From contig NZ_CP029844.1 in NCBI RefSeq assembly GCF_003268615.1, positions 310,001 through 374,000 of the forward strand: DNA of 64,000 nucleotides. Direction: 5' to 3'. Below are positions 23,730 through 60,166 of the stretch, in pieces. Both the position numbers and the translations under genes were made by a program. How positions within the stretch are numbered: the first letter of the stretch is position 1; each line of letters starts with the position of its first letter. Origin of the DNA: Blattabacterium clevelandi (GTDB taxonomy: Bacteria > Bacteroidota > Bacteroidia > Flavobacteriales > Blattabacteriaceae). The notes under the pieces are model-generated. The model made no database searches and was not told the DNA's origin. It saw only the letters and a program-made list of their open reading frames with translations.

Positions 23730-23903
23730 AAAAATAGAATTAGTAGAGTATGAAAATATAAAGTTAACTGTTTTACTATTTTTATTTTCGATTGTCTTAT
23801 TAGGATAAAATTTTAAAAAAAAATTTTATTTTATACAATTATTTTTTACCTTTATTTATTTTGATTCTGCGAAGTTAAGTAAGTAAGAAGTAAGAAAGAC
23901 AAA

Positions 23904-40101: not shown

Positions 40102-41166
40102 TTATTGACAAAAACTTTCGATAATTTTTTTGCAATAATAGATAAGTTCACTGTATATCCACCTTATTATGGCCTTTTTTTCTTGAATAGGATACAAAAG
40201 GTGAACATTTGCGCCGGCATCTAGTGTAAAATAGATGTTTTGTTTGCTTTGTTTTCTAAAATCCCATACTTTATGAAGTACGTGAAGTGTATTCGGTCTC
40301 ATCCATAAAAAATAGGGATTAGAGGTCATGATCATAGCATGAAGATTTAAAGATTCATGTTCTATTAATTCTCCAAATTTTGGAAAATCTCCTATTTTTA
40401 ATATAGATATCAGTTGATCCATATTTCTATTAGCGAATTTTAATCTTTCTTTAGCATAAGGATGGTTATTCATTAATTGATGTCCTTTTGAACTTAAAAT
40501 TTTTTTAGGTTCTTCATCTATTACTAAAATAGTATCCCAAATTTTTGTAAAAATTGGGTGTATTTTATAGGGATAAGGGATAGAATAAAGATTATTACTC
40601 CCTTTTATTGATTTATGTTTTCCCCAAACTACAAGTCCTGGATAGATAGATCTACAAGCACTTCCGGATCCTAATCTAGCTAAAAAAGAAGCTTTTTTTA
40701 AAAAAAAAGCTTCTTTTAAAGAAGAATCTAATTTTTTTTCTATTTCCATAATACATAAAGCTAAAGCGCTCATAGAAGAAGCCGAAGAAGCAATTCCACT
40801 ACTGTGGGGAAAAGTATTATCGGTTTTGATAACAAAATTAAAATATCGCAAATAAGAACAATAAAATGATATTCTATGAAAAAATTCCAAAATTTTTGGG
40901 AGAAAATTAGTTTTTTCTTTTCCAGAAAAGAAAATTTTTATAGATCTTTTTTTTTTTTTCTCTCTAAGATGATAAATTAGTTTTGTTACCGTGTAAACCT
41001 CTTCTAATGAATAACTAATAGAAGAATTCATCGGTATTTGAATTTTATTCTTTCGTTTTCCCCAATATTTTATTAAAGCTATATTGGAATGGCTCTTTTT
41101 GGTGACTACTCCATTTGAAACTATAGAATAGTTTTTTTTCTTATAAAAGAAACAATTACTTTTCAA
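40102..41166 (-). CDS. mvaD: Diphosphomevalonate decarboxylase, TTG start
   Basis: GHMP-kinase-fold enzyme making isopentenyl diphosphate in the mevalonate route. Motifs: SNIALIKYWGKRKNK, the ATP loop PHSSGIASSASSMSALAL, LARLGSGSACRSIYPG and MTSNPYFLWMRP. The frame is closed by a stop at 41170-41172; the first usable codon is TTG at 41166, which gives a normal-length N-terminus before SNIALIKYWGK, so a TTG start is likely. It encodes 354 aa. A 34-base inverted repeat lies inside (40684-40717). Its presence points to mevalonate-dependent isoprenoids, as in part of the Flavobacteriia. Confidence 0.92.
   Translation of the reverse strand: MKSNCFFYKKKNYSIVSNGVVTKKSHSNIALIKYWGKRKNKIQIPMNSSISYSLEEVYTVTKLIYHLREKKKKRSIKIFFSGKEKTNFLPKILEFFHRISFYCSYLRYFNFVIKTDNTFPHSSGIASSASSMSALALCIMEIEKKLDSSLKEAFFLKKASFLARLGSGSACRSIYPGLVVWGKHKSIKGSNNLYSIPYPYKIHPIFTKIWDTILVIDEEPKKILSSKGHQLMNNHPYAKERLKFANRNMDQLISILKIGDFPKFGELIEHESLNLHAMIMTSNPYFLWMRPNTLHVLHKVWDFRKQSKQNIYFTLDAGANVHLLYPIQEKKAIIRWIYSELIYYCKKIIESFCQ
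40684..40717. repeat. Long perfect inverted repeat inside mvaD
   Basis: AAAAGAAGCTTTTTTT (40684-40699) and its exact reverse complement (40702-40717) are separated by AA. The arms are 16 bp. It lies in coding sequence for the segment EAFFLKKASFLA, just before the conserved GSGSACRS motif. Confidence 0.95.
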
Positions 41167-48159: not shown

Positions 48160-49485
48160 ATGAGTTATCTAGTTTCTATAGTAGGACGTCCAAATGTAGG
48201 AAAATCAACTTTATTTAACCGTATTATAGGACAAAAAAAAGCTATAGTTCATGTTAAAAGTGGAGTTACCAGAGATAGGATCTATGGAAATTCTGAATGG
48301 AATGGAATCCATTTTTCTGTAGTAGATACAGGAGGTTATAATCCTCCAAATAATCATATAGATATAATAGATACAGAAATCAGAAAACAAATTTTAATAG
48401 CTTTAAAAGAATCTGATGCAATTTTGTTTTTAGTGGATATGGAAATAGGTCTACTAGATGTAGATATCGAAATATCTAAAATACTTAGAAAATGTAAAAA
48501 ATCAATATTATTAGTAGTTAATAAAGTAGATAACGGAAAAAATCTGTATCATGATACAGATTTTTTCCGTTTAGGATTTAATAATTATTATTGTATATCT
48601 GCTATAAATGGAAGTGGTACTGGGGAAATGTTGGATAGATTAATAGAAATATTGAAAAAATTAGTAGAAAAAAAAGTAGAGGAAAGGGAAGGTATTCCAC
48701 GTTTTTCTGTAATTGGTAGACCAAACGTAGGAAAATCTACATTAATTAATTCTTTTTTAGAGAAAGACCGTCATATTGTCACAAATATTTCTGGTACAAC
48801 CAGAGATAGTATAGATGTTTTCTACAAAAAATTGGGATATAAATGTATTTTATTTGATACACCTGGAGTTAGAAAAAAATCAAAAATAAGTGAAAATATT
48901 GAATTTTATTCTACTATGAAAACGGTTAAAACGATTAAATATACAGATATTTGTTTTTTGATGGTGGATGCAGTTAGAGGATGGGAATCGCAGGATAGAA
49001 ATATTTTTAGATTGATTGAAAAAAATCAAAAAGGTGTAATCATTCTTATTAACAAATGGGATTTATTACATAATAATCAAAATTCTTCTATACAGAAAAA
49101 TTTTGAAATTTTTATTAAAAAAAATATTGCTCCATTTGATAATGTACCTATCCTTTTTATATCGGCTAAAAATAAGGATGGTATATATAATATTATCCCC
49201 ATAGCTTATCATATTTTTAGAAAAAGAAAAAAAAGATTAAAAACCAATTTATTAAATAGAGTTATGTTACCAATTTTTAAAAAAAATCCTCCTCCTTCTA
49301 TCAATAAAAAATTGATTACAATAAAATATTGTACTCAATTGCCTACATATACACCAAAATTTATTTTTTTTTCTAATTATCCTCAGTATATAAAAGAATC
49401 TTACAAAAGATTTATTGAAAATAAAATTCGTTATTATTTCGATTTTATAGGAGTTCCTATACAAATTTTTTTCAGAAAAAAATAA
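48160..49485 (+). CDS. der: Ribosome assembly GTPase Der (EngA)
   Basis: Tandem-GTPase needed for 50S maturation. 441 aa: first G domain GRPNVGKSTLFNRIIG, VVDTGGYNPP, VNKVDN; second G domain GRPNVGKSTLINSFLEKD, FDTPGVRKKSK, NKWDLL, ISAKNKDG; then a KH-like domain ending GVPIQIFFRKK. Full length, all nucleotide motifs intact. A 40-base perfect palindrome (48532-48571) lies just after the first NKVD motif, encoding DNGKNLYHDTDFFRLG; the segment has the normal family length, so it is not an insertion. Confidence 0.97.
   Translation: MSYLVSIVGRPNVGKSTLFNRIIGQKKAIVHVKSGVTRDRIYGNSEWNGIHFSVVDTGGYNPPNNHIDIIDTEIRKQILIALKESDAILFLVDMEIGLLDVDIEISKILRKCKKSILLVVNKVDNGKNLYHDTDFFRLGFNNYYCISAINGSGTGEMLDRLIEILKKLVEKKVEEREGIPRFSVIGRPNVGKSTLINSFLEKDRHIVTNISGTTRDSIDVFYKKLGYKCILFDTPGVRKKSKISENIEFYSTMKTVKTIKYTDICFLMVDAVRGWESQDRNIFRLIEKNQKGVIILINKWDLLHNNQNSSIQKNFEIFIKKNIAPFDNVPILFISAKNKDGIYNIIPIAYHIFRKRKKRLKTNLLNRVMLPIFKKNPPPSINKKLITIKYCTQLPTYTPKFIFFSNYPQYIKESYKRFIENKIRYYFDFIGVPIQIFFRKK
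48532..48571. repeat. 40-bp perfect palindrome inside der
   Basis: The 20 bases 48532-48551, beginning AACGGAAAAAATC, are followed with no spacer by their exact reverse complement (48552-48571), ending GATTTTTTCCGTT. In RNA this would be a very stable hairpin in the coding region; in DNA it could extrude as a cruciform. Confidence 0.97.
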
Positions 49486-50251: not shown

Positions 50252-52573
50252 ATGAAAATTTTTTATCCATCAATTATAGTTATTCTTTTTATATTATCTA
50301 TTTTTGATCTTATTGTAGGGGTGATTAACGATTCCGTAAATTTTCTTAATTCCGCTATCGGATCTAAAGTCGCTTCTCGTAAGACTATTATGATTTTTGC
50401 TAGTTTAGGTATTCTATTGGGTTCTTTTTTATCTAGTAGAATGATGGAAATAGCAAGAAAAGGTATTTTTGATCCGTCTTATTTTTATTTTTCTGATATT
50501 ATTTTTATTTTTTTAGCAGTTATGATATCCGATATTATTTTATTGGATATTTTTAACACTTTAGGATTGCCGACCTCTACTACAGTATCAATGGTTTTTT
50601 GTTTATTAGGAGGAGCGTTTAGTATTTCCATGATAAAAATTGCTTCTCCATTAAGTAATGAACCATTTCATCATTTAAGTCAATACATTAAAGCGGAAAA
50701 AACATTGACAATTGGTATAGGAATTTTTTTATCTATTATAATTTCTTTTTCCTCTGGTGCATTGATTCACTATTTTATACGGCTTTTATTCAGTTTTGAA
50801 TATAAAAGTAGATTAAAATATACCGGAGTTATATGGGCCTCTATTTCATTGAGTAGTATGACCTATTTTTTGATTGTAAGAGGCCTACACAGTAACTTTT
50901 TACAAAAAGGATACATATATGATAATTTATCAGGATTATCTTTAGTAATTCAACATTTTATAAAATGGATCCATCATAATTTTTTTTTCTTTTTGATTTT
51001 ATTATTTACAACTTGGATCATTATAGCGAAAATATTTTTTCTTTTAGGATATAATATCTTAAAATTTGTCGTATTATATGGAACATTTTCTTTAGCTATG
51101 GCTTTTTCAGGAAATGATTTAGTCAATTTCATAGGAGTTCCTATAGCTAGTATACAATCTTATAATATATGGAAAGAAGCCGGAAGTCCTCCTGCAGAAG
51201 AATTTAATATGAAAAATTTATCTGGAAATGTCCAGGTTCCGTCTTTTGTTTTGATATTTGCAGGTATAATTATGATATTAACACTTTGGGTTTCTAAAAA
51301 AACAAAAACAATTACCAAAACGGAAATTAATTTAAGTAGACAAAATGAAGGAAACGAAAAATTTTTATCCAATTCTTTTGCAAGAGGAATTGTTCGATTT
51401 TTTTTATTTTTCGGAAAAAAATTTTTTAATTTTTTTCCGAAACGATTTCTGGTTAAAATAGAAAAAAATTTTAAGCAAAAAATCAAAAAAGAGGAAAATA
51501 TTGCTTTTGATCTAGTTAGAGCTTCTGCTAATTTAACTATATCTAGTATATTGATCTCTATAGCTACCGTTAAAAATATTCCACTATCTACTACTTTTGT
51601 CACTTTTATGGTTTCTATGGGAACTTCTCTTTCAGATAGAGCGTGGAATAGAGAAAGTGCGGTTTATCGAATATCAGGAGTTTTAAAAGTTATAAGGGGA
51701 TGGTTTTTAACTGGGTTGATAGCATTCACTATGTCCGTCATTATAGCCTATTTTTTGTATTTTATAAAGGTATGGGCTCTAATATTTTTTATTTTTTTAA
51801 TGGTATTTATTTTTTACAAAAGTTATAAAAATTATCAAAAAATACAATATCAAAAAGTGGAAGAGAAAAAAACTATATTTGGGATAATAGAATGGATAAC
51901 ATTAAAAAACAAAACTTCCGAAAGTTCAGATCTTTTAGAGCCTATGCTCAAATCTATAGAACTGATTTATAAAAATAGTATAGAAGGAATTACTCAAGAA
52001 AGTTTGAACCCCCTTAAAGATAATAGAAAAAACTTTTTAAAAGTAAAAGAAAATTTTAATTATATACAAAACTCTTTAATTAGAGTGATCAAAAAAACAA
52101 GGAATAGTGATCCTATTTTTGGAAGAATTTATATACGTATATACAATAAAATTAAAGAAATATTGGAATCCGAAGACATTATTACCAATTGCACTTTATT
52201 TCATGTCATTAATTGCCATAATCCTTTAAAATACAATCAAAAAAATAATTTACTTACACTTGAACATTTTATGATAGAATATTTCAGTATTATAAAAAAA
52301 ATAATCATGAATAGAAATTGTAAATATGTAAGAAAAAAAATAAAAATTAATATTATAAAAAATATTGAAGAACAAATAAATCAACAGGTTAATGGAATTA
52401 TCCATAAAAAATATGGTAAAAAAAATACATTATTAATGTTAGATATTCTTATCCAATCAAAAAAAATTACAGAAAATATAGAAGATTTTATCCTATTATA
52501 TACAAATTTTTTATCCCATTTTTATTCAAACAGAGACTCTTCCATTTTAGTTGTAAAAAATATAAAAATTTAA
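50252..52573 (+). CDS. Inorganic phosphate transporter (PiT family) with long C-terminal domain
   Basis: PHO4-type phosphate:cation symporter, 773 aa. The two inverted signature halves are visible: DLIVGVINDSVNFLNSAIGS near the N-terminus and MAFSGNDLVNFIGVPIASIQ in the middle, each with the GxNDxxN core; GLPTSTTVSMVFCLLGGAF and NIPLSTTFVTFMVSMGTSLS repeat likewise. About ten membrane segments, then from about residue 550 a soluble helical region that resembles PhoU/DUF47-like domains fused to this transporter in Bacteroidetes. A 34-base inverted repeat (51409-51442) lies in the central hydrophilic loop. Confidence 0.9.
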   Translation: MKIFYPSIIVILFILSIFDLIVGVINDSVNFLNSAIGSKVASRKTIMIFASLGILLGSFLSSRMMEIARKGIFDPSYFYFSDIIFIFLAVMISDIILLDIFNTLGLPTSTTVSMVFCLLGGAFSISMIKIASPLSNEPFHHLSQYIKAEKTLTIGIGIFLSIIISFSSGALIHYFIRLLFSFEYKSRLKYTGVIWASISLSSMTYFLIVRGLHSNFLQKGYIYDNLSGLSLVIQHFIKWIHHNFFFFLILLFTTWIIIAKIFFLLGYNILKFVVLYGTFSLAMAFSGNDLVNFIGVPIASIQSYNIWKEAGSPPAEEFNMKNLSGNVQVPSFVLIFAGIIMILTLWVSKKTKTITKTEINLSRQNEGNEKFLSNSFARGIVRFFLFFGKKFFNFFPKRFLVKIEKNFKQKIKKEENIAFDLVRASANLTISSILISIATVKNIPLSTTFVTFMVSMGTSLSDRAWNRESAVYRISGVLKVIRGWFLTGLIAFTMSVIIAYFLYFIKVWALIFFIFLMVFIFYKSYKNYQKIQYQKVEEKKTIFGIIEWITLKNKTSESSDLLEPMLKSIELIYKNSIEGITQESLNPLKDNRKNFLKVKENFNYIQNSLIRVIKKTRNSDPIFGRIYIRIYNKIKEILESEDIITNCTLFHVINCHNPLKYNQKNNLLTLEHFMIEYFSIIKKIIMNRNCKYVRKKIKINIIKNIEEQINQQVNGIIHKKYGKKNTLLMLDILIQSKKITENIEDFILLYTNFLSHFYSNRDSSILVVKNIKI
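51409..51442. repeat. Long perfect inverted repeat inside the phosphate transporter gene
   Basis: TTTCGGAAAAAAATT (51409-51423) and AATTTTTTTCCGAAA (51428-51442) are exact reverse complements separated by TTTT. The 15-bp arms encode FFGKKFFNFFPKR in a variable loop. Confidence 0.95.
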
Positions 52574-59533: not shown

Positions 59534-60166
59534 ATGTTTATTTTGAATAAATTTAACCATATTCACACTAAAATTATAGTTTTTAGATGTTCACATCTAA
59601 AAACTATGCTTTTAGAAAAATTAATATTTTCTGATAAAGAAAAAAAGTTTTTTTTATCTTTATCAGAAAAACGGAAAAAAGAATTTTTAGGAGTACGTTA
59701 TGCCCTAAAATATATAGGTATAAACATGAATCTTTTGTATAATGAAAAAAGAAAGCCTTTTTTTTTTCCTAAAGGAAAGTATATTTCTTTAAGTCATTCT
59801 TTTGAACTAATTGCTATAGCAATTAGTTCCTATCATATAGGTATAGATATAGAAAAATTACGAAAAGATAAAAAGATAATAAAAATAAAAAAAAAATTCA
59901 TTAGAAATGATGAATCAGTTTTTATTCATCCTAATTACGAAGAAGATTATCTTCATATCATATGGGGGATTAAAGAAAGTTTATATAAGTTAGAAGGTGG
60001 CCTATCCTCCAATTTTTTAAATCACTATAAAGTTTCTCCTTTTTTTCTAAAAAAGGATTCTTGCATCTCCTGTTGGATTATAAAAGATTCCTATAGTAAA
60101 AAATTCTCTGCTTTTTATAGAAAAATAGATGACCATTATCTAGTTTATATTATAGATGATAAATAA
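59534..60166 (+). CDS. 4'-phosphopantetheinyl transferase (Sfp type)
   Basis: Attaches the phosphopantetheine arm to acyl carrier protein. 210 aa: KRKPFFFPKGKYISLSHSFE, the magnesium site in AISSYHIGIDIEKLR and the second motif IIWGIKESLYKLEGG (WxxKE). The N-terminal third is less conserved. Two strong inverted repeats lie in the coding sequence (59576-59607 and 59804-59829). pnuC follows 12 bases after. With fabI it supports fatty acid synthesis. Confidence 0.87.
   Translation: MFILNKFNHIHTKIIVFRCSHLKTMLLEKLIFSDKEKKFFLSLSEKRKKEFLGVRYALKYIGINMNLLYNEKRKPFFFPKGKYISLSHSFELIAIAISSYHIGIDIEKLRKDKKIIKIKKKFIRNDESVFIHPNYEEDYLHIIWGIKESLYKLEGGLSSNFLNHYKVSPFFLKKDSCISCWIIKDSYSKKFSAFYRKIDDHYLVYIIDDK
59576..59607. 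repeat. Long perfect inverted repeat in the phosphopantetheinyl transferase gene
   Basis: ATAGTTTTTAGATGT (59576-59590) and ACATCTAAAAACTAT (59593-59607) are exact reverse complements separated by TC. It spans codons 15-25, encoding IVFRCSHLKTM. Confidence 0.96.
59804..59829. repeat. 26-bp perfect palindrome in the phosphopantetheinyl transferase gene
   Basis: GAACTAATTGCTA (59804-59816) is followed directly by its reverse complement TAGCAATTAGTTC (59817-59829). It encodes ELIAIAISS, just before the conserved GIDIE motif. Confidence 0.96.

Follow-up and report, generated by a model that had tools for sequence, protein, structure and literature searches.

How did a perfect palindrome come to lie within der, an essential gene of the cockroach endosymbiont Blattabacterium? 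In the 64-kb stretch of the Blattabacterium clevelandi genome analysed here (the window), the 20 bases AACGGAAAAAATCTGTATCA are followed with zero spacer by their exact reverse complement, TGATACAGATTTTTTCCGTT, at positions 48532-48571, precisely where an initial annotation made from the sequence had placed a 40-bp spacer-free palindrome. The features concerned are the following.

48160..49485, + strand: der (engA), ribosome biogenesis GTPase, 441 aa (TIGR03594 GTPase_EngA equivalog, E 1.8e-146, above the cut-off)
48520..48531, + strand: NKVD (G4) motif of G domain 1, codons 121-124, read from the translation; abuts the palindrome upstream
48532..48551, + strand: left arm AACGGAAAAAATCTGTATCA, codons N-G-K-N-L-Y-H; variable across the genus, the rewritten arm
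48552..48571, + strand: right arm TGATACAGATTTTTTCCGTT, D-T-D-F-F-R; the likely template

Domain matches in Der comprise MMR_HSR1, in two stretches, and one KH_dom-like domain, and the palindrome spans codons 125-138, directly 3' of NKVD and ahead of the SA motif. The site is therefore inside G domain 1 and not, as the initial annotation had it, between the two G domains.

Among the window's inverted repeats with a spacer of at most 60 bp, the palindrome alone has arms of at least 18 bp, and it is the only one that is paired at 20 of 20 positions with zero spacer; the second-longest perfect arm measures 16 bp. This shorter repeat, at 40684-40717, lies within a diphosphomevalonate decarboxylase gene and is identical in the sister species G041. 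When the window was simulated 150 times under an order-3 Markov model, the maximum arm was 18 bp with a spacer of up to 20 bp and 17 bp with zero spacer; in synonymous-codon shuffles of the window's genes, in which the proteins were kept, repeats with arms of at least 18 bp averaged 0.0. The proposal that a 20-bp arm is far from chance expectation thus holds, and the inverted-repeat scan of the window with shuffled controls turned up no equal case. A 301-bp query taken around the palindrome found no other genomic copies, returning only itself, its own minus strand and one unrelated 35-bp match. This single copy rules out a dispersed palindromic (REP-like) or mobile element.

We compared the 620-kb genome of this species (G000) with 48 congeneric genomes, each species being represented by one genome, using orthologues aligned by codon. 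Across the genus the right arm, D-T-D-F-F-R, is conserved, with ACAGATTTTTT kept in nearly all 49 genomes, and the left arm, a loop, is variable. The alignment of der across other Blattabacterium that had been suggested as a check revealed that two sister species share the palindrome: G047 is paired at 19 of 20 positions (CTA for CTG, silent) and G041 at 18 of 20 (CTA, together with AAT for AAC, both silent). Fold-back during library preparation is a possible source of perfect palindromes, and an assembly or amplification chimera of this kind could yield such a structure. We consider it very unlikely, because two separate sister-species genomes carry near-identical versions with silent differences only; in addition, the reading frame and protein length of der are normal and the flank is not duplicated.

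When the palindrome region was left out, the der tree grouped the three palindrome species, with G043 as their sister, at 100% bootstrap. Outgroups carry a quasipalindrome in the same register, paired at 15 of 20 positions in G017 (L020), the closest sequence of outgroup type, 14 of 20 in G043 (L021) and 13 of 20 in G045 (L022). Within it, G043 and G017/G045 have TACATG, encoding Y-M (TCCATG in G020), whereas this species and its two sisters have AATCTG or AATCTA, encoding N-L. The polarity of the change rests on these extant outgroups as a proxy for the ancestor.

The differences between this species and the outgroups fall where pairs were missing. Compared with G017, five of the 40 bases differ; these coincide exactly with the five positions that are unpaired in G017, and all five changes restore a Watson-Crick pair (P ~3e-7 that five substitutions placed at random, with transition bias allowed for, would all do so). 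Compared with G043, six of six differences restore pairs (P ~1.5e-8). The palindrome was chosen as an extreme and a genome holds a few thousand comparable quasipalindromes, a figure based on 64 windows of at least 14/20 found in 64 kb for each spacer length; by our own rough estimate, the P values after correction come to ~0.002. The five changes relative to G017 are distributed as follows.

48541..48546, + strand: converted tract, TACATG (Y-M; G017, G043, G045 and others) to AATCTG (N-L), with substitutions at 48541, 48543 and 48544
48553, + strand: fourth pair-restoring substitution, AAT to GAT, N132D
48567, + strand: fifth pair-restoring substitution, TTT to TTC, silent

Three changes are thus in the left arm, confined to a four-base tract, and two, both single transitions, are in the right arm. 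A left-arm cluster of this type is the typical footprint of one conversion. The right-arm transitions need not belong to the same event, and with the arms split three to two, a single unidirectional event does not account for the full set. Base 48546 is a G in this species and an A in both sisters. Parsimony ties here between a palindrome that was perfect on the stem and then lost this pair twice and one that was completed only in this species; CTG makes up 1.6% of leucine codons, and G to A is the expected direction of decay at this position.

The same loop has also been rewritten in a lineage distant in the tree. In G003 (L035), AATCTATATCAGAATA is the reverse complement of the relatives' TATTCTGATACAGATT with one mismatch, as a copy of the neighbouring 16 bases with the inverted spacer included; this single replacement explains up to eight linear differences and leaves one over. 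A single origin for G003 and the G000 clade was rejected (p-AU 4e-106), as was the placement of all five carriers in one group (p-AU about 1e-48 to 5e-48). A third carrier lineage, G007, is inseparable from the G000 clade (p-AU 0.135). The der loop thus seems to have been struck at least twice within the genus. At the level of sequence, the alignments document the present states, their polarity as judged by extant outgroups, the pair-restoring pattern and its recurrence in an unrelated lineage.

These observations bear on coincidence, that is, on substitutions that arose independently, under protein constraint and AT-biased mutation, without any template switching. Constraint on the protein holds the right arm fixed, half of the pairs are present in relatives anyway, chance pairing is frequent in AT-rich DNA, and Asn-Leu at this Der loop recurs in the genus and is tolerated, all of which would make a fortuitous palindrome easier to reach. 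Against this stand the five of five pair-restoring differences, the 20-bp arms that the window controls never reached, and the 16-nt reverse-complement replacement in G003. Moreover, in all AATCT lineages the leucine is coded by CTN and not by TTA, which accounts for 55% of leucine codons. We therefore regard coincidence as unlikely.

A further explanation is a selected RNA or DNA hairpin, in which an mRNA structure would pace the translation or folding of Der, or would stabilise the mRNA or direct its cleavage. The hairpin has a predicted minimum free energy (MFE) of -22.6 kcal/mol, with a z of -5.4 relative to synonymous resampling, and weak pairing is found in many relatives (77% of cells at this register compared to 42-61% at slid registers). 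However, among the 33 gap-free sequences pairing is no better than in shuffles (77.3% versus 77.6% of cells paired) and covariation is 0.071 versus 0.074 when shuffled, with one pair showing a double change, so the paired changes between the arms that would point to selected structure do not exceed shuffles. The predicted MFEs of the sisters are weaker, -16.4 and -14.6 kcal/mol, through silent changes; outside the clade the folding z has a genus mean of -0.75 and is positive in several species; and indels disrupt the arm register in a number of genomes. Selection for a hairpin is thus quite improbable, and the idea of an mRNA hairpin slowing translation between the G domains fails on its location, on the lack of covariation and on the silent decay in the sisters.

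We also ran a blind scan of aligned genome pairs for clusters of differences that match a reverse-complement copy, with complement-only copies as the control. The counts were 28 versus 24, 91 versus 61, 44 versus 44 and 86 versus 64. The der cluster tied for first place in two scans of ~55 kb, including the 52-kb G000/G043 alignment, with a score of 25-26 compared to 23-25 for the best control, and in a separate scan it appeared as a copy of 20 nt with one mismatch. Since the excess over the complement-only control is weak, the blind scan is not our main evidence, and the single-event signature that it gives is not decisive by itself.

The best explanation of the palindrome is quasipalindrome correction by template switching during replication, of which it would be the mutational scar; we assign this reading a probability of about 0.8. 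The suggestion in the initial annotation that an imperfect palindrome was corrected toward perfection in this way is well supported by the 48 orthologues. The region encoding the loop after NKVD is a quasipalindrome by nature, since the N-G-K codons (AACGGAAAA) are partly complementary to the conserved T-D-F-F codons (ACAGATTTTTTC) that come after them. In the ancestor shared by the three palindrome species, the strand being synthesised may have switched during replication from its template to the other arm, either in its own fold-back or on the opposite strand, pairing with that arm and copying it before returning to the template. Left-arm TACATG would thereby have become AATCTG, with the arms reaching perfect complementarity or falling one base short. 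The protein tolerated Y128N/M129L in a variable loop, so that the scar could be fixed, probably by drift; it now appears to be decaying in the sister species via silent changes. The polymerase event itself, the strand involved and fixation by drift are what we infer from this pattern. GC skew was uninformative as to leading or lagging strand, its sign flipping inside the window.

Conversion of quasipalindromes and inversion of spacers in genes are known effects of template switching (PMC8604942, PMC7202029); in yeast genes it has been described as converting arms together with inversion of the spacer, and as recurring at one site (PMC8604942). The inverted-repeat arm conversion in S. cerevisiae (Abraham and Hazkani-Covo 2021, PMC8604942) resembles der in being a multinucleotide, arm-homogenising change in coding sequence and in recurring at one site with a parallel amino-acid change, and the REG2 case, with spacer inversion and arm conversion, resembles G003. 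The der case differs from those in yeast in that it lies between endosymbiont species, in an essential GTPase and at several percent divergence, such that its single-event status is deduced less directly. In E. coli quasipalindrome mutations (lacZ QP reporters and the thyA hotspot; PMC7202029, PMC6357072) an imperfect inverted repeat is likewise perfected by copying of the nascent or other strand, but these were measured in the laboratory, whereas der is known by its evolutionary footprint alone. Perfect inverted repeats are also embedded in the mitochondrial protein genes of Nematomorpha (PMC6649704); those palindromes are up to 284 bp long, numerous and apparently maintained, while that in der is 40 bp and decaying in the sisters. 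The palindrome thus belongs to a known class of mutation and is no new element; what it adds is phylogenetic documentation, recurrence and the endosymbiont setting.

For bacteria, genome-wide quasipalindrome correction is attributed to van Noort et al. 2003 as cited in PMC10434271, and in a bacterial survey a Blattabacterium is among the high outliers for inverted-repeat frequency (PMC10434271). These surveys describe the same inverted-repeat excess in AT-rich endosymbiont genomes that we see here; they count repeats genome-wide, whereas we measured the excess inside genes relative to synonymous shuffles and followed one site across 49 species. In ~175 kb of this genome, genes contain 17 inverted repeats with arms of at least 12 bp and a spacer of at most 20 bp, compared to 2.0 in synonymous shuffles. 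On the same measure the values are 13 versus 1.9 in G041, 7 versus 1.35 in G047 and 13 versus 1.95 in four other congeners, and three free-living Flavobacteriales pooled give 3 observed versus 0.4 expected (arms of at least 12 bp). The coding excess is therefore not confined to the symbiont, although the AT-rich genomes contain far more such repeats in absolute terms.

Several other coding or rearranged sites were observed alongside. A perfect hairpin with 15-bp arms at 51409-51442, in a phosphate transporter ORF (50252-52573), reads AAAAATT...AATTTTT here and ATAAATT...AATTTAT in G041, G047 and G043, a symmetric compensatory double change that leaves the arms perfect. The 4'-phosphopantetheinyl-transferase-like gene at 59534-60163 (PF01648) contains three long inverted repeats (59576-59607, 59627-59670 and 59804-59829), and the G047 copy has a version of the second with 20-bp arms. 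Relative to both sisters, G041 and G047, a segment of about 30 bp at 23814-23846 seems to be inverted (94% match on the minus strand), which is the trace expected of a template switch with spacer inversion. In G035, a perfect inverted repeat with 23-bp arms and a 5-bp spacer lies in a coding frame (L084:9545-9595), with a decayed counterpart in G003 (L081:9191-9233).

Neither SbcD nor XseA was found in any of the 49 Blattabacterium genomes, while control genomes gave matches, and SbcC and ExoI are absent from this genome. RecA is present, as is a protein with a PD-(D/E)XK nuclease domain (PF12705, a family found in RecB/AddB). Loss of SbcCD was rejected as the only explanation for the excess of repeats, and the data do not establish it as causal, because free-living Flavobacteriales with SbcD also carry a few long coding repeats. 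That the loss of repair nucleases raised the template-switch rate is plausible but unproven. More tentatively, the loss of SbcCD, ExoVII and ExoI may have led to more short-range template switching, which would make and maintain coding palindromes and produce convergent, non-adaptive amino-acid changes in essential proteins, the Der loop being a hotspot hit two or three times; we regard this wider scheme as possible but doubtful.

Clustered amino-acid changes are easily misread as positive selection. The der palindrome is a clean example from nature of how clustering and convergence of amino-acid changes in an essential gene can be explained by a mechanism of mutation and not by selection. A further suggestion from this case is that endosymbionts without palindrome-processing nucleases could serve to test whether these nucleases limit template switching over evolutionary time.
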